From NCBI GenBank assembly GCA_903828515.1, contig CAIKMD010000007.1, positions 1 through 64,000 of the forward strand: a stretch of DNA of 64,000 bases. Reading direction: 5' to 3'. Position 1 is the stretch's first letter. The number at the start of each line of letters is the position of its first letter. Made by a program: the position numbers and the translations under genes. Positions 3,006-62,660 of this stretch are shown piece after piece. This DNA comes from an uncultured Rhodospirillales bacterium (lineage in GTDB: Bacteria > Pseudomonadota > Alphaproteobacteria > ATCC43930 > CGMCC-115725). The notes under the pieces are model-generated. The model ran no database searches. It was not told the DNA's origin and saw only the letters and a program-made list of their open reading frames with translations.

Positions 3006-3066
3006 ACGCCTGCGAAAACATCGGGGTACGGAACGGCCATCGGCAACTGCAACGAAGGAGGTCAGT

Positions 3067-44833: not shown

Positions 44834-44892
44834 AGCGGCCGCGCGAATTTATTGTTAGTCTCGACCCGGCGACCGATCTCAAGGAGGATGCG

Positions 44893-46176
44893 ATGCTTTC
44901 CGCGGCGGAGAACGAGCTTCTGACGCGAACCGATCAGGATACGCTGGCCGGACAATATTTCCGCCGCTTCTGGATGCCGGCTTTGTTGTCGGAGGAAATC
45001 CCCAGCCCCGATTGCCCGCCGGTTCGTGTTCGCCTGATGGGTGAGAACCTGATCGCGACGCGCGATTCGAGCGGCCGCATCGGCCTGATGGGCGCCTATT
45101 GCATGCATCGCCAGATGGATCTGTTCTTCGGCCGCAACGAGGAGAACGGGCTGCGCTGCGTCTATCACGGCTGGAAATTCGATGTCGAGGGCAATTGCGT
45201 CGACATGCCGACCGAGACCGAGGCGAGCAATTACAAGCATCGGATCAAGCTCACCGCCTATCCGGCCCGAGAATTCGCCGGCATCGTCTGGGCCTATATG
45301 GGCCCGAAGGATCTGCCGGTCGAATTCCCCGATTTCGAATTCAATAACCTGCCGAAAGAGAACGTCTATATCCGCAAGAGCATGCTCGAATGCAATTACC
45401 TTCAGGCGATGGAGGGGAATCTCGATTCGAGCCATGTCGGCATCCTGCATCGCTTCCTCGCGACCGGCGGGCTCACGCCGACGGTCGGCGGAGTCACCGA
45501 TATCGGCGAGGCGCAGACGGTGCGCGACGTGGTGCCGAGCTTCGAGATCAAGGATACCGCGGGCGGCTTCATGATCGGCGCCAAGCGCGCGCGCGGCGAC
45601 GGCAAGGCCTATTGGCGCATTACCCAATGGCTGCTGCCGGTTCATACGATGATCCCGAGCGAACCGGGCGAAACGTTGTTGTGGGATGCGTGGGTTCCGA
45701 TCGACGACACCCATACCTGGGTCTATCGCGTGCAATACAATCCGTGGCGACCGATCTCCGCCAAGGAAATCTTCGAATTCAACAATGTCGGCCTGATGCC
45801 GATCAACGTCGAGAACATCCCCGGCACCTATCTGCCGGTGCGCAACCGGAGCAATAATTACCAGATCGATCGCGAATTGCAGCGGACCTATAATTTCACC
45901 GGCATCAAGGGCAACAATGCCCAGGACGCGGCGGCGATCGAGAATCAGGGGCCGACGCCGATCGCCGATCGAGCCAAGGAGAATCTGGGTTCGCGCGACC
46001 TCGCCATCATGCAGGCGCGCAAGCGATTGCTTCAGGCCTTGAAGGAATTCAAGGACGGAGTCGAACCGTTACCCGCGTTGAAGGGTGATCTTTACAAGAT
46101 GCGGCCGATCGCGGTGTTTCTCGACGATAACGGAACGCCGTTTTACGACGGCGCGAAGGAACACATTTTCGTCTGA
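44893..46176 (+). CDS. Rieske non-haem iron oxygenase, phthalate dioxygenase-like, copy 2
   Basis: 427 residues with the same cofactor ligands as the copy at 40413-41699 (Cys70/His72, Cys89/His92, NLDSSHVGILH) and the same C-terminal blocks (NIPGTYLPVRNRSNNYQIDR, GTPFYDGAKEHIFV). The N-terminal variable region and the substrate-side loop around LATGGLTPTVGGVTDIGEAQ differ, so the substrate may differ. AAGGAGG lies just before the ATG. It ends the rightward gene cluster; a hairpin repeat follows. Confidence 0.92.
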   Translation: MLSAAENELLTRTDQDTLAGQYFRRFWMPALLSEEIPSPDCPPVRVRLMGENLIATRDSSGRIGLMGAYCMHRQMDLFFGRNEENGLRCVYHGWKFDVEGNCVDMPTETEASNYKHRIKLTAYPAREFAGIVWAYMGPKDLPVEFPDFEFNNLPKENVYIRKSMLECNYLQAMEGNLDSSHVGILHRFLATGGLTPTVGGVTDIGEAQTVRDVVPSFEIKDTAGGFMIGAKRARGDGKAYWRITQWLLPVHTMIPSEPGETLLWDAWVPIDDTHTWVYRVQYNPWRPISAKEIFEFNNVGLMPINVENIPGTYLPVRNRSNNYQIDRELQRTYNFTGIKGNNAQDAAAIENQGPTPIADRAKENLGSRDLAIMQARKRLLQALKEFKDGVEPLPALKGDLYKMRPIAVFLDDNGTPFYDGAKEHIFV

Positions 46177-46204
46177 TGCGGTCAGGATGGTTTCTCAAGC
46201 TGAA

Positions 46205-46338
46205 CCACACCTCACCCTCCCATCGCTTCGCGACGGGCCCCTCCCTCTCCCCGCAAGCGCGGAGAGGGGCTGATCGCATCAACCCTCTCCGCCCATTGGG
46301 GGGAGAGGGTGCGAGCGTGAGCGAGCGGGTGAGGTGGG
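46205..46338. repeat. intergenic palindromic repeat element
   Basis: A dyad of about 130 bases. Outer arms CACCTCACCC (46208-46217) and GGGTGAGGTG (about 46327-46336) enclose inner hairpins built from CCCTCTCCCC/GGGGAGAGGG-like arms. This composition is common in intergenic repeats of Proteobacteria. It may also end transcription of the Rieske gene and the convergent SBP gene. No ORF of note. Confidence 0.6.
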
Positions 46339-46372
46339 TGCGCGCCAACCTCAAACGATCAAGCTCTAAAAC

Positions 46373-47323
46373 TCAGCGGACGAATTTGTCCGTATAGAGC
46401 GTGTCGATCGAGGTGACGTCAGTTGCCTTCATCAGATCATAGTTGACCATGAAGTCGACCACGTTCTGGATGCCTTGTTTCTCGAACTTGCCGTCCTTGC
46501 TGAGGTCGAGGATTTTATAGATCGCCTCGGCGGCCTCGTCGGAATAGTGGTGGATCTCTTTCATCTTGGCGATCGCGAAGGGCTTGCCGGCCGGGCTCAT
46601 CAGGAAGCGGTTGGCTTCGAGGATCGAGGCGACGACGCGCTTGACCGTATCGGGCTTCTTCTCGATGAAATCCTTGCCGGCGACGATCGTATAGGAGAGC
46701 CAGGGATTGCCCTCGTATTTGTCGACCGTGAGCAGCGTCTTCACCTTGCCCTGAATCTGCAGATCGACCATCTGATGCGGGCTGAGGACGACGCCGTCGA
46801 TGCCGCCGGTGGTCAGCAGCGCCACGCTCGATTCGACGCCGCCGGTCGAAATGAACTGGATGTCGCTGATGCCCAGACCCTTGGCGACCAATCGTCCGTA
46901 AGCGTGTTCCGCGCCGCCGAGCCGCGACACGCCGATCTTCGCGCCTTTCAAATCGGCCGGGGCATTAAAGCGGCTCTTGGTGCCGACCCAGACCGCGAAG
47001 CCGTCTTCCGATTGCAGATTGGCGATGATGACCGAGGGCACGCCCTTGGCGATGGCGGGAATGTCAGTGGCGCCGGTCGACGAGCCGATCTGAATGGCGC
47101 CCGAGGCGATGTCGCGCTGCAGGTCAGGGCCGCTCTGGGTCGGGACCCATTCCGCCTCGATGCCGTTCTTCTTGAAGAATCCCTGTTCCTGCGCCGCCAG
47201 CACCGGGAGGTAGTACACCGCCGACAATTTGATCGCGGTGCCGTAGACGACTTTTTCCTGCGCGGCGAGGTTGGAGGCGGATAGCGCCAGAAGGAACAAT
47301 CCAAAAAGAAAAGACATTCTCAT
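46373..47323 (-). CDS. ABC transporter solute-binding protein (SsuA/TauA/NMT1-like)
   Basis: 316 residues, signal peptide ending NLAA. Type 2 periplasmic-binding fold: AAQEQGFFKKNGIEAEWVPT, GAIQIGSSTGATDIPAIAKG and ADLKGAKIGVSRLGGAEHAY. ATG 47323 is chosen over the ATG at 47317 because of the slightly better upstream GGGAG; the upstream frame start adds nothing conserved. The last gene of the leftward operon ATPase-permease-permease-SBP, separated from the permease by about 47 bases. Ligand unknown, probably an aromatic or sulfonated compound related to the Rieske enzymes. Confidence 0.92.
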   Translation of the reverse strand: MRMSFLFGLFLLALSASNLAAQEKVVYGTAIKLSAVYYLPVLAAQEQGFFKKNGIEAEWVPTQSGPDLQRDIASGAIQIGSSTGATDIPAIAKGVPSVIIANLQSEDGFAVWVGTKSRFNAPADLKGAKIGVSRLGGAEHAYGRLVAKGLGISDIQFISTGGVESSVALLTTGGIDGVVLSPHQMVDLQIQGKVKTLLTVDKYEGNPWLSYTIVAGKDFIEKKPDTVKRVVASILEANRFLMSPAGKPFAIAKMKEIHHYSDEAAEAIYKILDLSKDGKFEKQGIQNVVDFMVNYDLMKATDVTSIDTLYTDKFVR

Positions 47324-47369
47324 CGCCTGAGTGCTCCCGTTCGTTCGGTTGGAAGAAAAAATCTGCGTA

Positions 47370-48119
47370 TCAAGCGCGCCAGCGGCCAAAGTACCGCGCC
47401 ATGTACCAAAGCGCCATGTTGATGATGACGGTGATCGACGCGGTGACGATCACCGCCGCATAAAGGTCCGCCGTCTTGAAGGTGACGGCGTAGCCATGCA
47501 CCACGACGCCGAGCCCGTGCCGTGCCAATGCCAGTTCGACGATGAAGACGCCCATCATCGACGCGTTGCAGGCGTAATAGAAACCGGACGACAGGACCGG
47601 CAGCATCGACGGCAACGTTACCTTCCGGAAAATCTGCACCTTGCCGAAGCCCATCGCCTTCGCCAGCAGCAATTGATTCGGTTTGACCTCCGACGCGGCC
47701 GCCATGACGTTGAGGATCATCGGGAAGAACCCCGAGAGCGCGCCGAACACGATGATCGGCGGCTTGCCGATCCCGAACCACAGCAGGAACAGCGGCAGCA
47801 GGGTCACTTTCGGAATTGAGACGCCCAGGGCGAAGAGCGGCGTGAACACTTTATAGGCATAAGGCGACTGGTTGATCGCGAAGCCGATCAGGATCGCCGC
47901 GGCGACGCCGCTGGCGAAAGCGGCGGCGAATTCGGTGAGGGTCGCCGCGATGTCGGGGATCGCGGCGAGGGTCACCGGGACGATCTCGCGCATCGCCTCG
48001 ATCGGGCCGGCGAGAAACAGGGAATCGATCCACTCCCATCGCACCGCGAGTTCCCACACGATCAGGAACGCAACGATGGCGCCGGTCCGGATGACGAGCG
48101 GAAGATGCTTGTCCGTCAT
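47370..48119 (-). CDS. ABC transporter permease 2 (SsuC/TauC type)
   Basis: 249 residues, about six membrane segments, with the EAA loop region near LAKAMGFGKVQIFRKVTLPS. ATG at 48119 overlaps the TGA of permease 1 (ATGA), so the two permeases form a heterodimeric pore with the ATPase encoded upstream. All four components of one importer are present in this operon, the only complete ABC system in the window. Confidence 0.93.
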   Translation of the reverse strand: MTDKHLPLVIRTGAIVAFLIVWELAVRWEWIDSLFLAGPIEAMREIVPVTLAAIPDIAATLTEFAAAFASGVAAAILIGFAINQSPYAYKVFTPLFALGVSIPKVTLLPLFLLWFGIGKPPIIVFGALSGFFPMILNVMAAASEVKPNQLLLAKAMGFGKVQIFRKVTLPSMLPVLSSGFYYACNASMMGVFIVELALARHGLGVVVHGYAVTFKTADLYAAVIVTASITVIINMALWYMARYFGRWRA

Positions 48120-48880
48120 CGCACCCAGCGCCGTTCGAGAAGGCTGAACAGGGAATTGCCGGCGACGCCGATGCAGAGCGTGATGAGGATCAGCGCGTAG
48201 AGTTCGGGCGTGTGGTAATTGACCGCCGCCCAGTCGATCAGCGAGCCCAGTCCCGTATTCACCACCAGCAATTCGCCGGTGACGACGCCGATGACGGTAT
48301 AGCCGAAGCCGAGCCGCAATCCGGCGAGGATGGTCGGCGCGGCGGCGGGCAGCACGACCTTGATGAAAATCGCCAGGCGCCCGTAACCGACCGACCGCGC
48401 CAACGCGATGTAGTTGGGTTCAACCTGGCGCAACCCGGCGGTGGTGTTGAAGACGACGACGAAGATGCCGAGCAGCACGCCGAAAACGATATTGGGCAGC
48501 ACGCCGATGCCGAGGATCAGGATGATGACGGGGTAAAGGATGATCTTCGGAATCGCGTAGAGGACGAGAAGCACCGGCTCGAACGCGTCGCCGATCACTT
48601 TGGAACTCGCGAACGCTATTCCGACGAGCATGCCGAGCGCTGCCGTGATCGCGTAAGCCGCGACGACTTCGCCGATCGTGGTCAGCGCATTGGCATAGAA
48701 ATCGGGCACCTCGCCGCGCAGGAGGGCGATGTCGAAGATCTGCGCGAAAACCTTGCTCGGCGGCGCCAGCAGGATCGGACTGACATGGGACAGACGCGCG
48801 AACACTTCCCAAAGCACCAGGATGCCGCCGACAAAGATGAGACGGGCGATGGCGGGACGCGGCCGGCGCATCGTCATCAT
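48116..48880 (-). CDS. ABC transporter permease 1 (SsuC/TauC type)
   Basis: 254 residues, about six membrane segments, EAA loop near LARSVGYGRLAIFIKVVLPA. The start ATG 48880 overlaps the stop of the ATPase gene by four bases (ATGA), which fixes the start although ATGs follow at 48877 and 48871. A partner of permease 2; a dimer of unequal subunits is expected. Confidence 0.93.
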   Translation of the reverse strand: MMTMRRPRPAIARLIFVGGILVLWEVFARLSHVSPILLAPPSKVFAQIFDIALLRGEVPDFYANALTTIGEVVAAYAITAALGMLVGIAFASSKVIGDAFEPVLLVLYAIPKIILYPVIILILGIGVLPNIVFGVLLGIFVVVFNTTAGLRQVEPNYIALARSVGYGRLAIFIKVVLPAAAPTILAGLRLGFGYTVIGVVTGELLVVNTGLGSLIDWAAVNYHTPELYALILITLCIGVAGNSLFSLLERRWVR

Positions 48881-49698
48881 TCGTGCGGCAACGCGATTTC
48901 GTCTTGTTCGGCCTTCGCGCGCTTGATCGAGATCAGGGATTCGCCCTTCAGCTCGTTCCACAGCGTGTCGACCATCTGGCTGAATTCGGGTTTGCCGATG
49001 GTGCGCGGGCGCGGCAGGGGATTGACGATCTCGGCCTTGATCCGGCCGGGCCGTGCCGAGAACACGGCGATGCGCTCGCCGAGATAGACCGCCTCGGTCA
49101 GGCTATGCGTGACGAAGACGATGGTGCGGCGGACCTGGCGCCAGATCTCGATCAGCTCGTCGCCGAGGATGATGCGCGACTGTTCGTCGAGCGCGCCGAA
49201 CGGCTCGTCCATCAGGATGATGTCGGTCTCGAGCGCCAGCGAACGGCAAATCGCGACGCGCTGCGCCATGCCGCCCGAGAGCTGGCGCGGATAGTAATGC
49301 GCGAAATCCTCGAGCCCGACCATGCGGAGATATTTGAACGCGCGATCCTTGCGCTCGGCCTTGTCGATGCCCTGGGCCTCAAGCCCGAATTCGACGTTCT
49401 TCAGGACCGTCCGCCAGGGATAGAGGACCGGGTCCTGAAACATATAGGCCATCAGTTTCGGATTGGGTCCGGTTACCAACTGGCCGCCGACGCGAACCTC
49501 GCCGACGCCGGAATCGTAGGGCGTCAATCCGGCGATGATGTTGAGGAGGGTCGATTTGCCGCAGCCGCTGGGCCCGAGCAAAATCAGGAAGTCGTTTTCC
49601 TTGGCCGAGAGGCTGATGGTATCGAGAGTGCGGACTTTCCGGCCGCTGGCAACATCGTCATGCGTCTTGCTGACGTTCGTCACCTCGATAATGGCCAT
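48877..49698 (-). CDS. ABC transporter ATP-binding protein (SsuB/TauB type)
   Basis: 273 residues. Walker A LLGPSGCGKSTLLN, Q-loop near MFQDPVLYPWRTV, signature LSGGMAQRVA, Walker B IILMDEPFGALDE and H-loop FVTHSLTEAV are all present, so the subunit should be active. GTG 49713 is an alternative start five residues longer. It heads the four-gene importer operon, 107 bases after the Rieske gene at 49805. Confidence 0.95.
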   Translation of the reverse strand: MAIIEVTNVSKTHDDVASGRKVRTLDTISLSAKENDFLILLGPSGCGKSTLLNIIAGLTPYDSGVGEVRVGGQLVTGPNPKLMAYMFQDPVLYPWRTVLKNVEFGLEAQGIDKAERKDRAFKYLRMVGLEDFAHYYPRQLSGGMAQRVAICRSLALETDIILMDEPFGALDEQSRIILGDELIEIWRQVRRTIVFVTHSLTEAVYLGERIAVFSARPGRIKAEIVNPLPRPRTIGKPEFSQMVDTLWNELKGESLISIKRAKAEQDEIALPHE

Positions 49699-49804
49699 CC
49701 CCGACTTCACCACTCATCTTGCTCGAATAAAATTAGCACAGATGATTTGGGCGACGTAGCAGATTCCCCCCACGCTTACGCGGCAACACACGAAAGAGGT
49801 GTAT

Positions 49805-51085
49805 TCAGCGCGTCAGTGGATCGCCGTGCATCGCGTTGAGCTGGATGTCGATCTCGACCGTGGGCCGGACGTCGACGAAGCTCGGGCTGGTCGCGGTGGC
49901 GGCCGCATCGCCGAGCGACGCGGTGGCGAGGCCCCAGGCGCGCGGAACGATTTTCGCATCGCGTGTCCAACGCTTCAGGGTCCCGCCGTTTTCGCGCGCG
50001 GTGACTTCGCGGTCCCACAGCCGGCGAATGGCGATGACGCCGGTATCGGCGCGGCCCGGCCGTTCGTGATCGCGGTCGGCGATGCGGCCTTGCCCGACCT
50101 GCGCGATGTCGTCCTGCAGGCGGACCAGATCGACGCGATTCTTGTCGACGTCGCGCAGCGAAACCCGGCCGCGCAGAATTTCGCGCGCGACGTGCTGATG
50201 CGCCGTGTCGATCAGCATCCGTCGCTCCTGGCGCCGCGCCTTGACCCGCTCGGCGGTCTCGCCGCTGACCGGAATGCGATGAAGGCCGAACTGCATGTGC
50301 TGGACGTCGTCGATCGGCACCCACCAGAACAGCGATTCCTGCCAGCCGATTTCGGGGTCGGTCGGCAGCGCCGTCATATAGAAGATGTTGGGCATGCCGA
50401 ATTGCTGCACCCGCAACTGTCCGTCGGCGCGCGCGAAGGTATAGACGACGCCCCAGTCGGATTCCTCGGCGCGCAACTGGGCGCCGCGGCCGATGCCGTT
50501 ATAGGAGGCTTCGTTGTCGCGATGGACGAAGCCGACATGGCTCATGTCGAGCGCGTTCTCGACGTTCTGGAAGTAATTGCACTCGCGCAAGTACGAATCG
50601 ATTTCGATCAGCCCGCCGAAACCGTCGAACTCGGGAAACCGCGGCAGTTCCGGTGCTGCGCCGCTGCCGAGGAAGACGAAGATCAGGCCGAGATATTCCT
50701 GGGTCGGATGCGAGGCGAGGGTGACCCGGTCGCAATAGCTCGAATCCTCAGCCGGCTGTTCGACGCACGCGCCGTCGGCGGCGAATTTCCAGCCGTGATA
50801 GAAGCACCGCAAGGCGTCGCCCTCGACCCAGCCCGATGACAATTGCGTGCCGCGATGCGGACAACGCGCATCGACCAGGCAGACCCGGCCGCTCTCGCCG
50901 CGATAAAGGGTGAAATCCTCGCTCATGATCCGGAGCGGCACCGGCTTGCCGATGGCAAGATCGGCCGAATGATAAACCGGCTGCCAGAACTGCCGGAGAT
51001 ACTGGCCCGCCGCCGTGCCCGGTCCGGTGCGCGCGTAATCCACCATCTTGGTGGACCGCTGATTGGCGGTGGCGCTCATCGACAT
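49805..51085 (-). CDS. Rieske non-haem iron oxygenase, divergent type
   Basis: 426 residues. Rieske ligands CPHRG (Cys75, His77) and CFYHGW (Cys94, His97); mononuclear iron site NALDMSHVGFVH. It is only distantly related to the copies at 40413 and 44893 and belongs to a different branch. Three starts are possible (51094, 51085, 51079); 51085 has GGAG at a suitable distance. It is just upstream of, and probably co-transcribed with, the complete ABC importer, suggesting that the importer brings in its substrate. Confidence 0.9.
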   Translation of the reverse strand: MSMSATANQRSTKMVDYARTGPGTAAGQYLRQFWQPVYHSADLAIGKPVPLRIMSEDFTLYRGESGRVCLVDARCPHRGTQLSSGWVEGDALRCFYHGWKFAADGACVEQPAEDSSYCDRVTLASHPTQEYLGLIFVFLGSGAAPELPRFPEFDGFGGLIEIDSYLRECNYFQNVENALDMSHVGFVHRDNEASYNGIGRGAQLRAEESDWGVVYTFARADGQLRVQQFGMPNIFYMTALPTDPEIGWQESLFWWVPIDDVQHMQFGLHRIPVSGETAERVKARRQERRMLIDTAHQHVAREILRGRVSLRDVDKNRVDLVRLQDDIAQVGQGRIADRDHERPGRADTGVIAIRRLWDREVTARENGGTLKRWTRDAKIVPRAWGLATASLGDAAATATSPSFVDVRPTVEIDIQLNAMHGDPLTR

Positions 51086-51430
51086 GGCGGACATCTCCGG
51101 GCGGCGGCTGGCTTCCGTCGATCAGCATATAGAGTCTTCTGGTTCAGCCGCCAATCCTCGCGCGCGCCCGCACCGTTACGGTGCCGCCCTGGCCGGGGAC
51201 TGCCGGGGAACTGGCAAAGTCGTGGTTAATGTTGAGGTTCATTAAGATTAACAATCGGCCGATTTACAGTTAAATTAACTATCGTTACTGACAAAACTGT
51301 AAAAAATGAAGTGTTAACCAGTGATTTCAACGCGTTAAGCTTCTATTTGTTTGAAATTAACATCCCCTAAACATTAGCTTCCTGGCAACCCAAAGTCGCA
51401 CGCTGGGTTTACAGGAAAGACTTAACCGTC
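51086..51430. promoter_or_regulatory. 345-base divergent regulatory region with an AT-rich, TTAA-rich segment
   Basis: Sets apart the leftward Rieske operon from the giant repeat gene. The half nearest the giant gene is strikingly AT-rich in this GC-rich genome, with eight TTAA tetramers between 51226 and 51360 (starts at 51226, 51242, 51248, 51270, 51275, 51314, 51335, 51357). The spacing does not match CtrA boxes (TTAA-N7-TTAA). AT-rich binding by a xenogeneic silencer or a MucR-type protein is possible. Contains the leader hairpin listed next. Confidence 0.6.
51381..51419 (+). promoter_or_regulatory. leader hairpin overlapping the ribosome-binding site of the giant gene
   Basis: CCTG (51381-51384) pairs with CAGG (51412-51415) and AACCCA (51387-51392) with TGGGTT (51404-51409), separated by an eleven-base loop. 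The AGGAAAG ribosome site (51413-51419), eleven bases before ATG 51431, overlaps the 3' arm. Folding would hide part of it, so translation of the giant protein may be controlled by RNA structure or by a binding protein. Confidence 0.45.
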
Positions 51431-54400
51431 ATGGCATTCGCCGCCCTCCTTCGTGCCGTCCCGAAATCAGTGGTGCTCGCCGCATCCGCTTCGCGCGTCT
51501 CTTCGCGCACGGCATGGCTCGCGGCCTCACTGACAACGGGCATGGTGGCGATTGCTTTCATCTTGTTCGCGAGCGCGCCCGCCTCGGCGCAAGCCGCGAG
51601 CTGTACCAATGACGCCAACGCGGTCACATGCGCGGGCAGCGTAACCACGGGGACCGGCTTGAGCGTCGGGGCCGGCGGCGGCGGCGGCGGCGGCGATTGC
51701 GATTTTTGCACCGGCTCGCCCGGCAATGGCGGCAACGGCAGTACCGGCCACACGATCGACGTCACCCTCAATCCCGGCAATAGCGTGACGAGCTCGAGCG
51801 ACACCGGACTCTACGGCCAATCCAATGGCGGCGGCGGCGGTGGCGGCGGCGATAATATCGGCTTCGCCGGCGATGGCGGTCACGGCGGCAACGGCGGCAC
51901 CGGTGGTTTTGTCGGCGTCACCAATAACGGCGCGATCGCCACGACCGGCGTGGGCGTCATCGGCATGTCCGGCTTGAGCCAGGGCGGCGGCGGCGGCAAT
52001 GGCGGCGATTCGGACTCGCTGTTTTCCGGCAGCGGCGGCAACGGCGGCGTCGGCGGCACGGGCGGCACGGTTCAGATCACCAATAATCTCACGGTCACCA
52101 CCAATGGCGATCAAGCCATCGGCATCCTCGGGCAAAGCCTCGGCGGTCATGGCGGCAGCGGCGGCGATGGCGGCGCCATCGTCGCGCAAGGTGGTTCGGG
52201 CAGTTCCTCGGGCGCCGGTGGATCGGTCATTCTCGGCAACACCGACGCGGTCGAAACCTTCGGCACGAATTCGGCGGCGATGGTCGGGCAAAGCATCGGC
52301 GGCTTTGCCGGTTCCGGCGGTTCCGGCACCGGCATCTCGGGCGGCGGCGGCGGCGGCGCGGGCGGCGGCAATGGCGGCACGGTCTCGGCGACCAACTTTA
52401 TCGCCTCGACCCTGACCACGCATGAAGACGGCTCCTACGGCATTCTGGCGCAGAGCATCGGCGGTGGCGGCGGTTCGGGCGGCAGCGGCAGTGGCATCTT
52501 CGGCGGCGGCGGCGGCGGCTCGGCCGGCGGCTTCGGCGGCGACGTCACGGCGGAAAATTTCGGCACGATCATGACCAGCGGCAGCCTGATCGGCGCCAAC
52601 GGCAACAGCTCGACCGGCATCCTCGCGCAAAGCATCGGCGGCGGCGGCGGCAATGGCGGCAGCGGCGGCGGTCTCGTCTCGGTTGGCGGCAATGGCAGCG
52701 CGACCAGCGATGGCGGCGTTGTCACGCTGAACAATTACGGCACGGTGACGACCATTGGCGACGGCTCGCTCGCGTTACAAGCGCAAAGCATCGGCGGCGG
52801 CGGCGGCAATGGCGGCAGCGCCAGCGGTCCGTTCTCGGTCGGCGGTACCGGCGGCGGCGGCGGCCAGGGCGGACTCGTTAGCCTCGGCAATAGCGGCACG
52901 CTCTCGACCGGCGGCAACGATGCCTCGGCGATCGCGGCGCAGAGCATCGGCGGTGGCGGCGGCAATGGCGGCGGCGCGGTGGCGGCGGGTCTCGGCGTGA
53001 GCGTCGGCATCGGCGGCTCGGGCGGCGCAGGCGGCGACGGCGCGCTGGTCGATGTCGCCAGCAGCAGCGGCACGATCACGACGATCGGCGATCGCTCGCG
53101 CGGCGTTCTCGCGCAGAGCCTCGGCGGCGGCGGCGGCACCGGTGGCTTCGCGGTCAGCGTTGCGGTCGGCACTTCCGCATCGATCGCGGTCGGTATCGGC
53201 GGCTCGGGCGGCAATGGCGGCGACGGCGGCGAGGTCGTACTCAACAATTCCAGCACCATCGCGACGACGGGCATGCTCGCCCACGGCATCGAGGCGCAAA
53301 GCGTCGGCGGCGGCGGCGGCGATGGCGGCTTCAGCGTCGCGGTTGCGGCCAGCGCGGGCTTCTCGGGTACGCTCGCGATGGGCGGAACCGGCGGCGGCGG
53401 CGGCATCGGCGGATCAGTCTTTGCCACCAACAGCGGCGACATTTCGACGGGCGGCAGCCAGGCCTACGGCATTCTCGCGCAGAGCATCGGCGGCGGCGGC
53501 GGCGACGGTGGCTTCAGCATCGCGGGCTCGGTCAGCGCGGGCGGTCCTGCCGCGGCGTTGAGCTTCGGCGGCAGCGGCGGTAGCGGCGGCACGGGCGGCA
53601 TCGCCGCGATCGACAACACCGGCAACATCACGACCATCGGCGACAATGCGCACGGTCTCTTTGTTCAGAGCATCGGCGGCGGCGGCGGCGCGGGCGGCTA
53701 CAGCATCGCGGGCACGATCAGCGACACCGGCAATCTCGGTTTGAGCTTCGGCGGCGCCGGCGGCGCCGGCACCACGGCGAATACCGCGACGGTCGTCAAC
53801 GGCTCCAGCGCGTCGCCCAATGCGACCACGATCAGCACCACCGGCATGCATGCCGACGGCATCGTCGCGCAAAGCATCGGCGGCGGCGGTGGCGACGGCG
53901 GCTTCTCGGTCGCTGGCGGCATCAGCGGCGGCACCTCGCTCGACTTTGGCTTCGGCGGTGGCGGCGGTAGTGGGGGCACCGGTGCGCAGGCGTCGGTGAC
54001 GACCTATTCCAACATTACTACCAACAACGCGATGTCCGACGGCATCCTCGCCCAGAGCATCGGCGGCGGCGGCGGTGACGGCGGTTTCGCCATCGCGGGC
54101 AGTCTGTCCGACGGCGGCACCGGCGTAAATTTCTCCCTCGGCGGTCACGGCGGTAACGGCAACACCGCGGCCGGTGTCGATGTCACCAATGGCGGCACGA
54201 TTCTGACGAAGGGTATCGGATCGAACGGCATCGAAGCGCAGGCGATCGGCGGCGGCGGCGGCGCGGGCGGTTTCGCCGGTTCCCTTTCGGGTGGTTTCGG
54301 CGACGGCGCGCAACTCGCGGTCTCGATCGGCGGCGGCGGCGGCACGGGCGGCGACGCCGGTCTCGTCAGCGCGACCAACAGCGGCACGATCACCACGCAA

Positions 54401-57400
54401 CAGGATTCGGCCTCGGCCATCATCGCGCAAAGCATTGGCGGCGGCGGCGGCAATGGCGGCTTCAGCCTCAGCGCGGCCTTCGGCACCCAGCCCAACGCGG
54501 GGAATCTCAGTGTCGCGATCGGCGGTCATGGCGGCAGCGGCGGGACCGGTGGCGAAGTCGATGTCACCAACACCAACACGCTGACGACGACGGGCGATCA
54601 TTCCTACGGCATTTTCGCGCAGAGCATTGGTGGTGGCGGCGGCGCGGGCGGCTTTGCCGCGACCGGCACGCTCTCGACCAACGCCGACGCAAAGCAACTC
54701 TCGGTCGCGATCGGCGGCCATGGCGGCACCGGCAACGATGCCGGCCTGGTCAACGTGCAGAATGCCGGCAACATCGTCACCGGCGGCGTCAACGCCAACG
54801 CGATCCTCGCGCAAAGCATCGGCGGCGGCGGCGGCAATGGCGGCTTCGCGCTCAGCGCAACCGCCTCGGGTCCCGGCGGCGCGAGCGGCGATATTTCGGT
54901 CGGTGGTTTCGGCGCCGGCGCCGGCAACGGCAATGAAGTCGACGTCACCAGCAGCGGCACGATCACAACGGCGGGTTCGAACGCCATCGGTATCGAAGCG
55001 CAAAGCATCGGCGGCGGCGGCGGCAACGGCGGCATGGCCGTCGCGCTGAACTTCGGCACCACCTCGGCCGACCCCGAATCGCAATCGACGCAGCTCACCG
55101 TTGCGGTCGGCGGCGGCGGCGGCATCGGCGGCACGGGTGGTCTCGTCAACGTTATCAATGACGGCCACATCACCACCGTCGGCGAACAGGCTTACGGCAT
55201 CGAGGCACAGAGCATCGGCGGCGGCGGCGGCGATGGCGGAGTCAGCCTCGCGGGTTCGGTCCTGCTTGGCCCCAGCAACAACACGCCAAAAACCCAGGTC
55301 GCGATTTCGGTCGGCGGCTTCGGCGGCAACGGCAATAACGGCGGCACGGTCATCGTCAATCAGACCGGCGGCGTGACCACCGGCGGCGACGGCGCGACCG
55401 GCATCTTCGCGCAGAGCATTGGCGGCGGTGGCGGCGACGGCGGTGCCTCGCGCGCGTTCACGATGTCCCTCGGGCCGCCGTGTCCGGACGCGGATCCGGA
55501 ATGCGCGGCGAAGAATCGTTCGCTCGCTCTGGCGATCGGCGGCTTCGGCGGCGGCGCCAGCGATGGCGGCACCGTCACGGTCACCAATGCCGGCACGATC
55601 CGGACGACGGGCGCTGATGCCGACGGCATCCTGGCGCAGAGCGTCGGCGGCGGCGGTGGTCTTGGCGGCAACGGCCATGTCGGTGCCGGTGAGCCTGGTC
55701 TTGGCGCGACCGTGCTCGGCCGTCTCGACGGCCAAAAGGATCAGACCAAATTCCTGAAATCGCTGACCATCGCGGTCGGCGGCTCCGGCGGTTCGAGCGG
55801 CAACGGCGATCTCGTCACCGTCAACAACACCGGCGACATCTATACGTCGGGCACCACGTCGTTCGGCATCGTGGCGCAGAGCATCGGCGGCGGCGGCGGC
55901 ATCGGCGGCAACGGCGATACCGGTGCGATCGGCAAACTCGGCATCGGCGGTGCCGGTGGCGCGGCCGGCAATGGCGGCACCGTCAACGTGACGCAGATCG
56001 GCAATGTGATGACCTCGGGCGACGGCGCCACGGCGATCTTCGCGCAAAGCGTCGGCGGCGGCGGCGGTATCGCGGGTAACGTCGATCGTGGTCTTGCGAC
56101 CAGCATGAGCGAAGTCGGTGTCGACATACCCGGCGTCAATATCGGCGCGGGCGCGGCGTTCGGCCAGGATGGCGGCGGCGGCGGCAATGGCGGCGACGTC
56201 ACGGTGACGAGTTCGGGCATCGTCTACACCACCGGCGTTGGCGCCGACGGCATCTTCGCGCAGAGCGTGGGCGGCGGCGGCGGCGTTGCCGGCGCGCTCG
56301 GCAATACGCTCGACGGCCATTCGATCCTCGGTTGGACCGGCAGCGTCGGCGACGCCGGCAAAGCGGGCACGGTCACCGTCGATCACACCGGCACCATTCT
56401 CGTGACCGGCGATTATTCCACCGGCATCTATGCGCAGAGCGCGGGCGGTACTGGTAAAGGCGGCGACGTCAACATCAGCCTCGATGGTGCGGTTGGCGCG
56501 AGCGGTCTCGATGGCGTCGGCATCTTTGCGCAGAGCCTTGGCGGCGGCGGCAACGGCGACATCACCGTCACCGTCAAGGCCAATGGCATGGCGGTGGGCG
56601 GCACCGGTGCATTCGCCGCGGGCATCATGCTCGCCGACGGCGCCACCAACACGATCAACATCAATCATGGTGGCTTCGTCGGCACGATGGACGGCGGCAA
56701 CGGCAACGCGATCGTCGCGACCGGCGGCAACGACACCGTCAACAACGCCGGCACGATCACCGGCTCGATCGATCTCGGCGGCGGCATCAACGCCTTCAAC
56801 AACCTGCCCGGCGCGACCCTCAATCTTGGTCACATGACCAACTCTGCGACCTCGACGTTCACCAACGGCAACGGCTCGACGGTCAACGTGCTGAGCGGCG
56901 GTTCGTTCACCAACAACAACGCGAGCGGCACCGGCTTCGAGAACAACAACGGCACGTTCAACGTGGAAGTGGGTGGCGTCGTCAACGGCACCGGCCAGTA
57001 TCTCCAGACCGCCGGCACCACCACGGTCGACGGCACCTGGACGCAATCGCTCAGCGATTTCGAAGGCGGCCAGCTCAACGGTCTGGGCGTCGTCAACGGT
57101 ACCGTCTTCAACAATGCCAATCCCGGAGTCGGCCCCGCGCATACCGGCGTTAACGCCGGCGTCAGCGGCGTCGACCCGCTGGTCTTCACCGGCCTCGTCA
57201 CCGGCACCGGCAACTACAGCGGCGACGTCGAATTCGACGGCCAGTTCTCGCCGGGCAGCTCGGCGAGTTCGGTTGCCAATCTCAACACCCCTGGTGTCGC
57301 CGCGCCGTTCTCGACCAATCCGGCTTACTACCCGCTCGGCACCGGCAGCGTCGCCTCGATCACCGGCGAGCACCTGATCTTCGGCGCGACCAACACCACG

Positions 57401-60400
57401 TTCATGGACGTCAGTGGCGCCGCGGCCGATCACATCACCGTCGATACCGCCAATCTCGGTGGCGTGCTGACCTTGGTGCCGACCGCGCCGGTCGCCGGCA
57501 GCTACACGCTGCTCCAGGCCTCGGGTTCGGGCAGCGGCATCGTCGGCGACTTCGCGCTCGCCCAGATGCTCAACATCGGCAACAACAGCGACCTCTATAT
57601 GACGCGCACCAACGACGCGTCGGGCTACACGGCGAATTTGCGCTCGACCTCGGCGGACTACGGCGTCGCGGTCGGCACCACGTTCACCCAGATCGGCGGC
57701 GCCGGGATCAATCCGGGCGACTTCGGCCTCAGCGTCAATCCGACTCTGACCACGCTCGGTTCCAGCGCGACCTTCGGCACCGGCGGCGCCGGCGCCAATG
57801 ACGGGCCTGGCGGCAATGGCGGCAACGGCATGTCGACGGATATCGTTCTCGGCAGCGGCAATGCCCTCGCGGTGGGCGCGGGCGGCGATGGCGGCTTCGG
57901 CACGGGTTCGGCGCCGAACGGCAAAGGCGGCGACGCCGGCTTTGGCCTCGGCACGGCGATCATGAACGGCGCGACGGGTTCGGCGACGGCCTATGGCACC
58001 GGCGGCAACGGCGGTCTCGCGATGGGCAACGACGTCGGCGGCAATGGCGGCAACGGCGCCGCGCTGGCGACGGCGGCTCTCGGCACGGCCGGCCCGATCA
58101 ACGCGAAAGCGGTGGCGAATGGCGGGCTCGGCGGCAATTCGAATTCCGGCAATGGCGGTCTCGGCGGCGGCGCCGCGGCAAGCGCGATTGCGATCACCAG
58201 CGACGGCAATGCGACGGCCATCGCCAATACGTTCACGACCGGCGGCACGGGCGGCACCGGATCGGGCGCCGGCAATTTCGGCGGCGACGGCGGCATCGCG
58301 ACCTCGTCGACGGCGAGCGCGCACACCGACGGGGCCGGCAACGGCATCGCGGTTGCCTCGGTCGAGCAGACCGGCGGCGCCGGTGGCGCGGGTCTCAACA
58401 ACGCCTCGGGTGGCGCGGGCGCGGCTTCGACCCTGACCAATGCGGTCAACGGCGTTACCCACGGCATTCTGCAATTGTTCCAGACCGCCATCGGCGGCGC
58501 GGGCGGTGCGGGCGATCACGTCGGCGCGGGCGGCATGGGTGCCGACGGCACGTCGACCCTTACCTATAACGACGGCCTCGCGAGCGAAGTCGATGCAACG
58601 ACGACCGGCATCGGCGGCATGGGCGGTGACGGCACGAACCACGCTTTCGCCGGTAACGGCGGCACGGGCACGGCAACGACGGTCCTGACCGCGAACACGA
58701 ATGCGAATGCTTCGGCGATCGCGGTGGGCGGCAATGGCGGCGACGCCGTTCCGGCCAATCGCGGCGGCATCGGCGGCGACGCGGTCGCGACGTCCACGGC
58801 GAACATGGCTTTGGCCTCGGGCACCGCGAATTCGACGGCACTTGCCACCGGCGGTATCGGCGGCAATGGCGGCGTGGCCCGTTTCGGCGGCACCGCGTCG
58901 GCCGAAGCGATCGTCGATCAATTGATGCCCGCCTTCGGCATCGCCGATGCCTTCGGCATCGCGCAGGGCGCGGCGGTCGGACCGGCGAGCGTCCAGGCGA
59001 ACGCCACCAGCACGGCCGGCAATGTCGTGACCAACGCCATCGCGCAGGGTCCGCATAACGTGACGGTCGGCGTAACCGGCACCGGCGGCACCGGCAGCAA
59101 TCTCGGTAATGGCGGCACGGTCGATGCGTTTGGCATCGGCACCAGCACGACCAACGGTCTTGTCGATGTGAACGTGACGGGCACCGGCGGCGCGGGCAAC
59201 GCCGCGACCGGTCTCGGCAATGTTGCCGGCAACGGCGCTGCGACGAACTTCTCGACGGCGAGCTCCGCGGTGAGCGCGACCGGCAATGCGAATGTCTCGG
59301 TCGTCGGCATCGGCGGCGCGGGCGGCAATGGTTCGAGCCAGGCGACGGGCGGCCAGGGCGGCAATGCGGCGCTCGCCAACGTGGTCACCGGTTCGACGCT
59401 GGGCGGCAATCTGACCCTCAACCAGGCGGCGATCGGCGGTAACGGCGGCGCGGGCGATGATGGTGTCATGGCGGGCGCGGGCGGTCTGGCGACCTCGACC
59501 TTCGGTTACTTCGACACGGTTGGCGCGACACATCTCTTCGGCACGTCCAGCGCGATGGGCGGCACGGGCGGCGCGGGCACGAATGGCACGCTCGGCGGCA
59601 CGGGCGGCACGTCGGATGCCGGCATCGTCCTCGCCGGCATCGGCAACGGTGTCGTCACCGGCACGGTGAACAGCATCGGCGGCAACGGCGGCGCGAGCAC
59701 CGATGGCACGGCCAATGGCGGCGCCGGCGGCATCGCCTATGAAACACTCGGCGCGAGCGCGAGCAGCGTGCGCGGCGCGTTGGCTCTGACCCTCAATGCC
59801 TTCGGCGGCACCGGCGGCGACACGTTCGGCGCCGGCCATGCCGGCGGCCTCGGCGGTGACACCTTCGTCACCGGCGCGGTGATCGGTACCAGCAGCAATG
59901 GCGGCGACGTGACTGTCACCGCGAATGCGACGGGCGGTCTTGGCGGTTCGGGCACGGCGTCGACCGGCGGCGCGTCGGGCGGCAATGGCGGCAATGCCTC
60001 GCTCGTCAACATCGTCGGCGGCGACACCACGGCCTCGCTCATCCTGCGTCAGAATGCTTTCGGCGGCACCGGCGGCAACGGCGACGGTATCGGCAGTGTC
60101 GCGGGCGTCGGCGGCAACGCGGTCTCGCAATTGACCTATACCAATGCGGATCCGAACTCGCTCACCGGCCTCGTCTTCGCCCTGGGCGGCAATGGCGGCA
60201 ACGGTTCGAACGGCGTCACCGGCGGCCAAGGCGGCACCGCGACGGCGAACATCACCTTGACCGGCGATCTGCTCGCCAATCCCACGGCGATCGGTGGTAA
60301 CGGCGGCGACAACACCGACGGCACCGGCAGCGGCGGCAATGGTGGCACGGTCAGCGGCACCACCGGTCTTGCCATCGGCAGCACGCCGACCGCGCCGGTC

Positions 60401-61696
60401 ACCTCGATCGCCACGGCGATCGGCGGCAATGGCGGCATCGGTTCGGGTATCGGCAATAAAGGCGGCGACGGCGCCGTGGCGGATACGACGAGCGCGACGG
60501 CGATCAGCCCCGGCACCGGCATCGTCACCGCGCAGACCATTCAGGTCGGCGGCAGCGGCGGCAACGGCATCCTCGGCGCGAACGGCGGCAACGGCGCGTC
60601 CTCGAGCCTCGCGGCGATCAATGCCGGCGGTACCGGCACCGGTCAGATCAACCTGATCCAGCAGGCCTTCGGCGGTAATGGCGGCAATGGCGCGGTCGGC
60701 GGCAATGGCGGCAATGCGGATGCATTGACCACCGTCGCGGCGATCATCGCGGGCCAGAACGTTTACGCTGAATCGGATGCGGTCGCCGGTCTCGGCGGTC
60801 TCGGCGCCAACCCTGCGCTCAACGGCACCACCGGCACGGCGAACGTGACGGCGAACTCCTCCTCGATCGGCAACGGCCTCGCGAAGTCGAGCGCCTTCGC
60901 CGACGGCAGCTCGGGCCAGGCGCAATCGAACAGCATCACCACGGGTGGCGGTGCGATCAGCGTCAGCGCGAATGCCACGGCCGCGGTCGCGAGCCCGGTG
61001 CAGACCCTGTCGCAGACCACGGTCGGCCGTGCGGTTCCGGTCGCTCCGGCGAACTTCGTCTCCGGCGGCGTCCAGGCTTTCGCCTTCACCACCGGATTGC
61101 CGGATCGCAGCTCGGTCATCGCGACCGTGCTCAATCCCGCCTTCCCGAACATCACCGCGGTCATCCCGACCAACGACATGGGCCATTATCTCGGCGCCGC
61201 GTCGCTCGGGGTCGCGCGCGCCAGCACCGGCACGCTTCAGGTCTATGACAGCATGATCGACTTCAAGCTGTCCTACGCATCGCTCGATGCCGGCACCCAT
61301 CTCGATCTCGCGCTCTACAATCCGATCAACTTCAATGCGGGCGGGTTCTCGGCGAACGACTCGGTGAAGATCACCATCCTCACCAACTTCCCCGACTTCT
61401 CGATCACGTCGCTGGCGACGCTGCTTGCGAACACCACGAACCTCGCCGAACTCAACGCGATCTGGGGCAACCAGGTCTATGACCTGGGCGGCGTCGGCTT
61501 CGGTCTCTCGGGCACCTTCGACTTCGCCATCGACATCCAGTTGATGGCGACCGACCCGGTCGGCTTCGCCGGCAGCGCGCTCCTCGCCACCGTCCCGGAA
61601 CCGACCAGCCTGATGCTCCTGGGCACCGGTCTCTTCGGCTGGATCGTGGTTCGCCGCCGCCGCGCGATGCGGGTCGCGCCGCCGATCGCGGCCTGA
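51431..61696 (+). CDS. giant glycine-rich repeat protein with a PEP-CTERM sorting signal (3,421 residues)
   Basis: Residues 1-54 are a long signal peptide (SAPASAQAA around the cut). Residues about 70-1700 contain some 25 copies of a roughly 60-75-residue unit built around ILAQSIGGGGGNGG and a beta-strand with xxGTITTxGD. Residues about 2080-3180 carry a second repeat type rich in GGNGG and AxATAxA. A non-repetitive domain of about 200 residues follows (KLSYASLDAGTHLDLALYNP). The end is VPEPTSLMLLGTGLFGWIVV followed by RRRR, a PEP-CTERM signal for recognition by an exosortase. Similar repeats occur in autotransporters, but there is no C-terminal barrel here. Probably an extracellular matrix or cell-surface protein. 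No exosortase gene is in the window. Long antisense frames opposite it are a composition effect. Confidence 0.9.
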   Translation: MAFAALLRAVPKSVVLAASASRVSSRTAWLAASLTTGMVAIAFILFASAPASAQAASCTNDANAVTCAGSVTTGTGLSVGAGGGGGGGDCDFCTGSPGNGGNGSTGHTIDVTLNPGNSVTSSSDTGLYGQSNGGGGGGGGDNIGFAGDGGHGGNGGTGGFVGVTNNGAIATTGVGVIGMSGLSQGGGGGNGGDSDSLFSGSGGNGGVGGTGGTVQITNNLTVTTNGDQAIGILGQSLGGHGGSGGDGGAIVAQGGSGSSSGAGGSVILGNTDAVETFGTNSAAMVGQSIGGFAGSGGSGTGISGGGGGGAGGGNGGTVSATNFIASTLTTHEDGSYGILAQSIGGGGGSGGSGSGIFGGGGGGSAGGFGGDVTAENFGTIMTSGSLIGANGNSSTGILAQSIGGGGGNGGSGGGLVSVGGNGSATSDGGVVTLNNYGTVTTIGDGSLALQAQSIGGGGGNGGSASGPFSVGGTGGGGGQGGLVSLGNSGTLSTGGNDASAIAAQSIGGGGGNGGGAVAAGLGVSVGIGGSGGAGGDGALVDVASSSGTITTIGDRSRGVLAQSLGGGGGTGGFAVSVAVGTSASIAVGIGGSGGNGGDGGEVVLNNSSTIATTGMLAHGIEAQSVGGGGGDGGFSVAVAASAGFSGTLAMGGTGGGGGIGGSVFATNSGDISTGGSQAYGILAQSIGGGGGDGGFSIAGSVSAGGPAAALSFGGSGGSGGTGGIAAIDNTGNITTIGDNAHGLFVQSIGGGGGAGGYSIAGTISDTGNLGLSFGGAGGAGTTANTATVVNGSSASPNATTISTTGMHADGIVAQSIGGGGGDGGFSVAGGISGGTSLDFGFGGGGGSGGTGAQASVTTYSNITTNNAMSDGILAQSIGGGGGDGGFAIAGSLSDGGTGVNFSLGGHGGNGNTAAGVDVTNGGTILTKGIGSNGIEAQAIGGGGGAGGFAGSLSGGFGDGAQLAVSIGGGGGTGGDAGLVSATNSGTITTQQDSASAIIAQSIGGGGGNGGFSLSAAFGTQPNAGNLSVAIGGHGGSGGTGGEVDVTNTNTLTTTGDHSYGIFAQSIGGGGGAGGFAATGTLSTNADAKQLSVAIGGHGGTGNDAGLVNVQNAGNIVTGGVNANAILAQSIGGGGGNGGFALSATASGPGGASGDISVGGFGAGAGNGNEVDVTSSGTITTAGSNAIGIEAQSIGGGGGNGGMAVALNFGTTSADPESQSTQLTVAVGGGGGIGGTGGLVNVINDGHITTVGEQAYGIEAQSIGGGGGDGGVSLAGSVLLGPSNNTPKTQVAISVGGFGGNGNNGGTVIVNQTGGVTTGGDGATGIFAQSIGGGGGDGGASRAFTMSLGPPCPDADPECAAKNRSLALAIGGFGGGASDGGTVTVTNAGTIRTTGADADGILAQSVGGGGGLGGNGHVGAGEPGLGATVLGRLDGQKDQTKFLKSLTIAVGGSGGSSGNGDLVTVNNTGDIYTSGTTSFGIVAQSIGGGGGIGGNGDTGAIGKLGIGGAGGAAGNGGTVNVTQIGNVMTSGDGATAIFAQSVGGGGGIAGNVDRGLATSMSEVGVDIPGVNIGAGAAFGQDGGGGGNGGDVTVTSSGIVYTTGVGADGIFAQSVGGGGGVAGALGNTLDGHSILGWTGSVGDAGKAGTVTVDHTGTILVTGDYSTGIYAQSAGGTGKGGDVNISLDGAVGASGLDGVGIFAQSLGGGGNGDITVTVKANGMAVGGTGAFAAGIMLADGATNTININHGGFVGTMDGGNGNAIVATGGNDTVNNAGTITGSIDLGGGINAFNNLPGATLNLGHMTNSATSTFTNGNGSTVNVLSGGSFTNNNASGTGFENNNGTFNVEVGGVVNGTGQYLQTAGTTTVDGTWTQSLSDFEGGQLNGLGVVNGTVFNNANPGVGPAHTGVNAGVSGVDPLVFTGLVTGTGNYSGDVEFDGQFSPGSSASSVANLNTPGVAAPFSTNPAYYPLGTGSVASITGEHLIFGATNTTFMDVSGAAADHITVDTANLGGVLTLVPTAPVAGSYTLLQASGSGSGIVGDFALAQMLNIGNNSDLYMTRTNDASGYTANLRSTSADYGVAVGTTFTQIGGAGINPGDFGLSVNPTLTTLGSSATFGTGGAGANDGPGGNGGNGMSTDIVLGSGNALAVGAGGDGGFGTGSAPNGKGGDAGFGLGTAIMNGATGSATAYGTGGNGGLAMGNDVGGNGGNGAALATAALGTAGPINAKAVANGGLGGNSNSGNGGLGGGAAASAIAITSDGNATAIANTFTTGGTGGTGSGAGNFGGDGGIATSSTASAHTDGAGNGIAVASVEQTGGAGGAGLNNASGGAGAASTLTNAVNGVTHGILQLFQTAIGGAGGAGDHVGAGGMGADGTSTLTYNDGLASEVDATTTGIGGMGGDGTNHAFAGNGGTGTATTVLTANTNANASAIAVGGNGGDAVPANRGGIGGDAVATSTANMALASGTANSTALATGGIGGNGGVARFGGTASAEAIVDQLMPAFGIADAFGIAQGAAVGPASVQANATSTAGNVVTNAIAQGPHNVTVGVTGTGGTGSNLGNGGTVDAFGIGTSTTNGLVDVNVTGTGGAGNAATGLGNVAGNGAATNFSTASSAVSATGNANVSVVGIGGAGGNGSSQATGGQGGNAALANVVTGSTLGGNLTLNQAAIGGNGGAGDDGVMAGAGGLATSTFGYFDTVGATHLFGTSSAMGGTGGAGTNGTLGGTGGTSDAGIVLAGIGNGVVTGTVNSIGGNGGASTDGTANGGAGGIAYETLGASASSVRGALALTLNAFGGTGGDTFGAGHAGGLGGDTFVTGAVIGTSSNGGDVTVTANATGGLGGSGTASTGGASGGNGGNASLVNIVGGDTTASLILRQNAFGGTGGNGDGIGSVAGVGGNAVSQLTYTNADPNSLTGLVFALGGNGGNGSNGVTGGQGGTATANITLTGDLLANPTAIGGNGGDNTDGTGSGGNGGTVSGTTGLAIGSTPTAPVTSIATAIGGNGGIGSGIGNKGGDGAVADTTSATAISPGTGIVTAQTIQVGGSGGNGILGANGGNGASSSLAAINAGGTGTGQINLIQQAFGGNGGNGAVGGNGGNADALTTVAAIIAGQNVYAESDAVAGLGGLGANPALNGTTGTANVTANSSSIGNGLAKSSAFADGSSGQAQSNSITTGGGAISVSANATAAVASPVQTLSQTTVGRAVPVAPANFVSGGVQAFAFTTGLPDRSSVIATVLNPAFPNITAVIPTNDMGHYLGAASLGVARASTGTLQVYDSMIDFKLSYASLDAGTHLDLALYNPINFNAGGFSANDSVKITILTNFPDFSITSLATLLANTTNLAELNAIWGNQVYDLGGVGFGLSGTFDFAIDIQLMATDPVGFAGSALLATVPEPTSLMLLGTGLFGWIVVRRRRAMRVAPPIAA
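51815..56570 (+). repeat. tandem Gly-rich repeats, type 1 (AQSIGGGGG units)
   Basis: About 25 imperfect units coding for ILAQSIGGGGG-type cores, spaced about 180-225 bases. The GGCGGCGGC runs make this stretch prone to recombination and assembly collapse, so the copy number in this sequence may be inaccurate. Confidence 0.85.
57760..60930 (+). repeat. tandem Gly-rich repeats, type 2 (GGNGG/AxATA units)
   Basis: A second class of glycine-rich repeats between a non-repetitive spacer (about 56,600-57,700) and the C-terminal domain. The units are less regular than type 1 and contain many alanine, threonine and asparagine codons. They may have a different age or origin. Confidence 0.7.
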
Positions 61697-61709
61697 TCGC
61701 TGGCCTTGG

Positions 61710-61734
61710 GGAACGAAACAACGGGTATGACGTT
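61710..61734 (+). promoter_or_regulatory. candidate EcfG (general stress sigma factor) promoter
   Basis: GGAAC at 61710-61714 and CGTT at 61731-61734 with a 16-base spacer match the GGAAC-N16/17-CGTT consensus of EcfG. It lies 57-81 bases upstream of the YihY-like start. The neighbour 62791 gene has a similar element at 62683. Confidence 0.65.
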
Positions 61735-61790
61735 TCAGTAGGTTGTCGATCGAGCGCGGCAAAGTCGGAACGAAGGCGAGGCCGCCAGCC

Positions 61791-62660
61791 GTGAAGCACC
61801 TTTGGACGTGGACGAAACGGATTGCCGGCCGGATGTCGCGGGACAATGTCTCGCTGCTCGCCGCCGCGGTGACGTTTTACGTCTTCGTGGCGATCCCCTC
61901 GTCGATCACGGCAATCGTCTCGCTGTATGGGTTAGTGTTCAACGTCGGCGATATCCAGGAACATATCGCGTTCATGGAAGACCTGTTCCCGACCGACGCG
62001 ACCAAGGCACTCACCGATCTGCTGGCGACCCTCGCTTCCAATCCGACCTCTGTTCTTGGCAGCGAATTGGCGATGGGAATCCTGGTCGCGGTATGGAGCG
62101 GCCAATCCGCCGCGTCGGCGCTGGTCTCGGCGCTCGACGCGGTTTACGAAAAACGCGAGGCGCGCGGTTTTTTTGCCTTCCAGCTCACGGCGCTCGCCAT
62201 CGCACTGAGCTGGATCGTGCTCGCGGTCGCGGCGGTGACGCTCTTTTCGCTGGGCCCCTGGCTGCTCGACCGGACCTTCTTCGTCCATTTCCCCGCTTAC
62301 ATCATCCGGTGGCCGACCCTGATCGTGCTGGTCGCCGGCGCGATCGGCGCGCTTTATCGCTACGCGCCGGCGCAACGTCCCGAATATGGCTGGGGCAAGT
62401 GGGGAATTGCGTTGGCGACCACTTTGTCGCTCGGCGGTTCGGCGCTCTTCACGCTCTATGTCGAGTACTTCGCGTCTTATGACATCCGCTACGGCTCGCT
62501 CGGGGCGGCGGTGGTGATGCTGCTGTGGCTCTATGTCATGGTCTTCGCGGTCCTGCTCGGCGCCGAGCTGAACGCCGATCTCGAAGGCGAGACGCCGCGC
62601 AAGGACAGCGCCGTGCCGACGCCGACCGGCCAAATCCTCCCGGAAAGCGCTCGGCGATAG
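61791..62660 (+). CDS. YihY/BrkB-like (UPF0761) membrane protein
   Basis: 289 residues. Signature RMSRDNVSLLAAAVTFYVFV near the N-terminus, then several transmembrane segments (SWIVLAVAAVTLFSLGPWLL; YGSLGAAVVMLLWLYVMVFA) typical of the YihY/BrkB family. The start is uncertain: GTG 61791 and TTG 61743 are both possible. The C-terminal tail is charged and probably cytoplasmic. Function in the family is poorly known (serum resistance in some pathogens is historical). An EcfG-type promoter upstream suggests stress induction. Confidence 0.85.
   Translation: MKHLWTWTKRIAGRMSRDNVSLLAAAVTFYVFVAIPSSITAIVSLYGLVFNVGDIQEHIAFMEDLFPTDATKALTDLLATLASNPTSVLGSELAMGILVAVWSGQSAASALVSALDAVYEKREARGFFAFQLTALAIALSWIVLAVAAVTLFSLGPWLLDRTFFVHFPAYIIRWPTLIVLVAGAIGALYRYAPAQRPEYGWGKWGIALATTLSLGGSALFTLYVEYFASYDIRYGSLGAAVVMLLWLYVMVFAVLLGAELNADLEGETPRKDSAVPTPTGQILPESARR

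Follow-up and report, generated by a model that had tools for sequence, protein, structure and literature searches.

How does a giant protein built of autotransporter-type repeats leave the cell when it ends in a PEP-CTERM sorting signal and not in a translocating barrel? The question is raised by a gene for an apparently chimeric PEP-CTERM protein (51431–61696, + strand) in the window, the whole 64,000-nucleotide stretch analysed, which is C7:1–64000 in a host genome of 4.83 Mb and 11 contigs. The gene is an intact ATG-start frame of 3,421 codons without an internal stop, and all its parts given here lie on the + strand. Hydropathy and residue pattern place a putative long signal peptide at residues 1–54 (51431–51592), with a hydrophobic core at ~27–45 and the ending ...ASAQAA, the hydropathy maximum of this signal-peptide-like N-terminus falling at residues 27–38. 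Class-1 AQSxGGGGG repeats, in units of 52–80 residues, fill residues 129–1760 (51815–56710), as delimited by motif counts, a profile search and, from residue 1351, a beta-helix model. They run into an end-of-passenger module common to barrel-type autotransporters (residues 1719–1871; 56585–57043) and then into the rest of a cap region (residues 1872–2110; 57044–57760), which was assigned with low model confidence from orthologue identity and by-eye comparison with relatives; by the same visual comparison, the cap region holds a passenger-end-like GGxLTxxP...YTLLxASG stretch. Class-2 repeats, ~40-residue GGxGG units, occupy the position of the relatives' barrel (residues ~2120–3110; 57788–60760), so that the two repeat classes of the original prediction are both present. 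A C-terminal ectodomain (residues ~3151–3386; 60881–61588), delimited by identity with a paralogue and with proteins of a sister genome, precedes the PEP-CTERM signal itself (VPEP, hydrophobic helix and RRRR; 61589–61660). The opposite strand carries a 2,810-residue open frame (53414–61846) that looks like a by-product of GC-rich repeat codons and not a second gene. Rieske oxygenases, a xanthine-dehydrogenase-type protein and an NMT1-type ABC transporter are encoded 5′ of the gene (42491–51094) and a BrkB-family protein 3′ of it (61743–62660), none with a visible link to PEP-CTERM.

The autotransporter character of the first half was apparent from motif counts against composition-preserving shuffles: 26 [AVG]Q[SA]xGG motifs (shuffle mean 0.64), 14 exact copies of AQSIGGGGG (mean 0) and 92 of GGxGG (mean 16.3). 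An HMM of the passenger end, built from eight barrel-type proteins and run on a ten-sequence set, matched residues 1719–1871 with 34.7 bits (E 6.6e-12, bias filter off in this glycine-rich protein), as well as the sister-genome orthologue and a Verrucomicrobiales protein, L080, and gave no match in the reversed sequence, in locally shuffled copies or in a class-2 paralogue. In the AlphaFold2 model of residues 1351–2150, each repeat forms three strands and 336 residues reach a pLDDT of at least 70; the strand cores are confident, but the glycine-rich loops and nearly everything beyond ~residue 1870 are not. With VIA-align, the best matches of this model were Vag8 (Z 27.2, rmsd 4.0, 358 aligned), UpaB (Z 25.5, rmsd 3.9, 330 aligned) and pertactin (Z 22.7, rmsd 3.8, 302 aligned), with beta-helical enzymes and tailspikes ranking below the autotransporter passengers at Z 22 or less, a difference to be read with care in that right-handed beta-helices of other functions score just somewhat lower. 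Foldseek alone returned no match to the model at E <= 0.001, nor did the passenger profile match any PDB sequence. The model and the structure comparison both give the beta-helical passenger that is expected of type Va. The predicted autotransporter-like AQSIGGGGG repeats are thus upheld, with about 25 AQSxGGGGG units, far above shuffles and passenger-type by HMM and model, and the class-1 half is most likely, on the modelled fold, an autotransporter-type passenger, a right-handed beta-helix with glycine-rich loops.

If so, the protein might still be type V secreted, its barrel divergent or supplied in trans in a two-partner arrangement. The autotransporter type of the passenger and of its end fits such secretion, as do three PF03797 proteins in the host genome, all encoded away from this gene. 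Yet Pfam and NCBIfam scans return no barrel model with E <= 1, in agreement with the absence of a barrel from the original prediction; PF03797, the type Va translocating beta-barrel, is not found at this threshold, the type Vb TPS domain PF05860 is absent from the Pfam matches, and none of the neighbouring genes tested encodes a barrel protein. Moreover, the C-terminus is a PEP-CTERM motif with a transmembrane helix and RRRR and not a barrel strand. We consider type V secretion distinctly unlikely.

Comparison with relatives points to a replacement of the barrel. A passenger-end scan of named genomes yielded 11 loci, a search of the class added G157, G200, G203 and G300, and G075 was found via the class-1 search. 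PF03797 occurs in the C-terminal parts of nine of the ten relatives scanned with Pfam, the tenth being L080, with neither barrel nor PEP-CTERM; outside that scan, L092 (G203) and Bradyrhizobium L084 and L085 have barrel-like ends by eye. Type Va autotransporters with AQSIGGGGG from Mesorhizobium ciceri WSM4083 (L088) and Brevundimonas lenta (L087) share with our protein the class-1 repeats, the end-of-passenger module and a probable beta-helical passenger but end in PF03797, where it has class-2 repeats, the C-terminal domain and PEP-CTERM. The repeat profile search proposed with the original prediction showed how rare class 1 is: at E <= 1e-10 the profile matches five of 385 alphaproteobacterial genomes, namely the host (in this gene only), G157 and G300 (barrel by Pfam), G203 (barrel-like end by eye) and G075, whose protein has its C-terminus beyond the sequence stretch examined.

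The PEP-CTERM signal could, in principle, be a chance resemblance in a merely secreted or periplasmic protein, given that the model spans just 24 positions. However, the last ~35 residues, which hold PEP motif, hydrophobic helix and basic cluster, exceed both Pfam and NCBIfam cut-offs, as the original prediction would have them: PF07589 matches residues 3387–3410 with 27.6 bits in the protein scan (cut-off 20.7) and the C-terminal end with 36.2 bits, also above cut-off, in the genome search, and TIGR02595 matches with 26.9 bits (cut-off 16). The signal is also kept in a paralogue and in two sister-genome proteins, and a cognate exosortase is encoded in the genome, making chance resemblance highly improbable. 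This end is the strongest of five above cut-off in the host genome, four of them in other proteins, so that the PEP-CTERM family members looked for are indeed there.

The exosortase, on whose presence the original prediction depended, is the only one found in the genome search and is XrtA (TIGR03109, 283.5 bits; cut-off 208) with an EpsI-like C-terminal domain. Its cluster encodes, all above cut-off, a PEP-CTERM export protein, a ChnLen chain-length determinant, a TIGR03016 outer-membrane protein, an XrtA polysaccharide deacetylase and an stp1 glycosyltransferase, with a tyrosine autokinase marginally below it (225.5 bits; cut-off 230.65). By gene content, XrtA sits within an exopolysaccharide operon. 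The response regulator PrsR is likewise present in the genome (TIGR02915, 649 bits; cut-off 502.6). Many, though not all, proteobacterial PEP-CTERM genes have a TTTACA motif and a sigma-54 site upstream; TTTACA occurs at −168 of our gene, and its upstream region contains no fitting −24/−12 site. Both genomes with the PEP-CTERM version of the protein encode an exosortase, and this version was seen in no exosortase-negative genome checked; among the genomes with the barrel version, G157, G423 and G425 also encode an exosortase, and the others checked do not. With known XrtA substrates (Haft et al. 2006, PMC1569441), such as the floc protein PepA (PMC9850573), our protein shares VPEP-TM-RRRR and a long upstream non-coding region, along with a putative signal peptide, with XrtA, the EPS locus and PrsR likewise in its genome, and it differs from them in its very large size and in an ectodomain of the autotransporter-passenger type.

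Within the genus, one further genome was compared, G001, a separately assembled MAG ('uncultured Rhodospirillales bacterium Umea2_bin-0321') that carries an orthologue (L035/L078) whose N-terminus is lost at a contig end. From residue 445 to ~2230, identity is 52–84% per 100-residue block; the class-1 part is collinear one-for-one at 62–84% per block and 74% overall, residues 445–1700 with a single one-residue indel, and cap residues 1721–2110 are 64.5% identical. The frameshifted or collapsed repeat assembly that might have undone the original prediction is ruled out, since the class-1 repeats are collinear in a congeneric genome assembled separately, with a dN/dS of 0.33 over class 1. With dN/dS at 0.47 in the cap and 0.39 in the class-2 start, the gene is, on these ratios, a coding sequence under purifying selection. 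The junction between passenger and class-2 repeats is present in both species, the class-2 array being much shorter in the G001 orthologue, and neither of the two flanking genes tested finds a counterpart in the G001 stretch compared. These data bear on the idea that the protein is accidental and nonfunctional, recombination with a class-2 PEP-CTERM gene having cost the passenger its barrel. Such decay would fit the single in-frame stop in the class-2-only giants of both genomes and a C-terminal domain only 35% conserved between orthologues against 74% for the class-1 part. It squares poorly with a frame open across 3,421 codons, an arrangement common to two species and purifying selection on class 1 and cap, and we regard it as unlikely.

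The C-terminal domain had been described as unique, which proved incorrect: it also ends class-2-only giants in the host and in G001. It is 70% identical to that of the second giant, on host contig C1, and ~35% identical to both G001 proteins, which are 54% identical to each other in this domain, and the PEP-CTERM signal is kept in all of them. The class-2 array is likewise collinear with that of the C1 giant, with 52% identity over ~1,050 residues. Because the C-terminal domains are closer within a genome than between orthologues, while the class-1 parts of orthologues are 74% identical, sequence comparison suggests that, once the fusion had formed, the two genes may have exchanged segments within each lineage; alternatively, the low orthologue identity may reflect rapid divergence. 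The AlphaFold2 model of the class-2 end and C-terminal domain was unusable (mean pLDDT 36.9). A C-terminal-domain profile run on the 385 genomes of the class matched mostly the PEP-CTERM end alone, and so we claim no family, some matches reaching weakly into the ectodomain.

The class-2-only giant of the host is apparently divided over two contigs, L100 (C3, 1–2881, −) and L007 (C1, 6287–14032, −), the last 93 bases of C1 being the first 93 of C3. Its order is signal peptide, one in-frame TAA, ~3,400+ codons of repeats and PEP-CTERM end, and a tRNA-like sequence lies directly upstream. In the G001 counterpart (L036, 4962–8804, +), the single in-frame TAA at 6405 may be a true interruption, a sequencing error or a programmed event. 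Upstream of L036 4962 we noted TTTACA copies and, by eye, a −24/−12-like TTGGCCCGGCTTTTGC, which resemble the PEP-CTERM regulatory pair reported in 2006 (PMC1569441).

Taken with the exosortase data, the protein is probably an autotransporter-type passenger joined to a class-2-repeat/PEP-CTERM module that replaces its translocating barrel. In the route we propose, the N-terminal signal would direct Sec export, the C-terminal helix would hold the protein in the inner membrane, XrtA would cleave at PEP, and the product would be released or attached to exopolysaccharide, forming an extended rod displayed at the surface or within the matrix; export would then have ceased to be type V. Exosortase acts at the inner membrane, and for this reason 'processed and sorted by exosortase', as a proposed role, is a more accurate wording than the predicted 'exported by exosortase'; the surface or matrix location is likewise one that we infer. 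We know of no established account of outer-membrane passage by PEP-CTERM proteins, and two products of the XrtA operon, its TIGR03016 outer-membrane protein and its export protein, would be candidates for this exit. Since PEP-CTERM proteins have been tied to exopolysaccharide loci (PMC1569441) and to floc formation (PMC9850573), the function is, by analogy, most likely matrix scaffolding or adhesion. The close relatives of the passenger use a built-in barrel and our protein seemingly the PEP-CTERM route, a matched pair with the same cargo and two export solutions, suggesting that the modularity of autotransporter passengers allows them to pass from one secretion system to another in the course of evolution. 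More tentatively, passengers may be re-routable in general, a beta-helical passenger being displayed without a type V barrel via the exosortase/exopolysaccharide pathway, in which case the PEP-CTERM system would bring rods of thousands of residues through the outer membrane; we put this at somewhat less than an even chance.

No description of PEP-CTERM with autotransporter repeats was found in the literature searched, whose coverage left out most subscription papers. Some Verrucomicrobia PEP-CTERM proteins contain autotransporter-associated strand repeats (TIGR02601/PF12951). The Verrucomicrobiales protein L080 (2246–11320, +), from a genome with two exosortase matches, resembles ours in its class-1 repeats and passenger-end module without a barrel, but has no PEP-CTERM match and has TafC-like N-terminal and TSP3-like C-terminal parts, both below cut-off. 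The principle of anchoring a passenger by PEP-CTERM extends beyond this one gene, since in L111 (585 residues) of another alphaproteobacterium, G416, passenger-like repeats also continue directly into a PEP-CTERM tag, no barrel being present; L111 is six times shorter, lacks AQSIGGGGG and class-2 repeats, and is judged a beta-helix by eye only. Two passenger-like PEP-CTERM proteins are in fact encoded in G416, L111 (2261–4015, −) and L107 (1314–5138, +), the latter with a second, internal PEP-CTERM-type match at ~residues 208–257.
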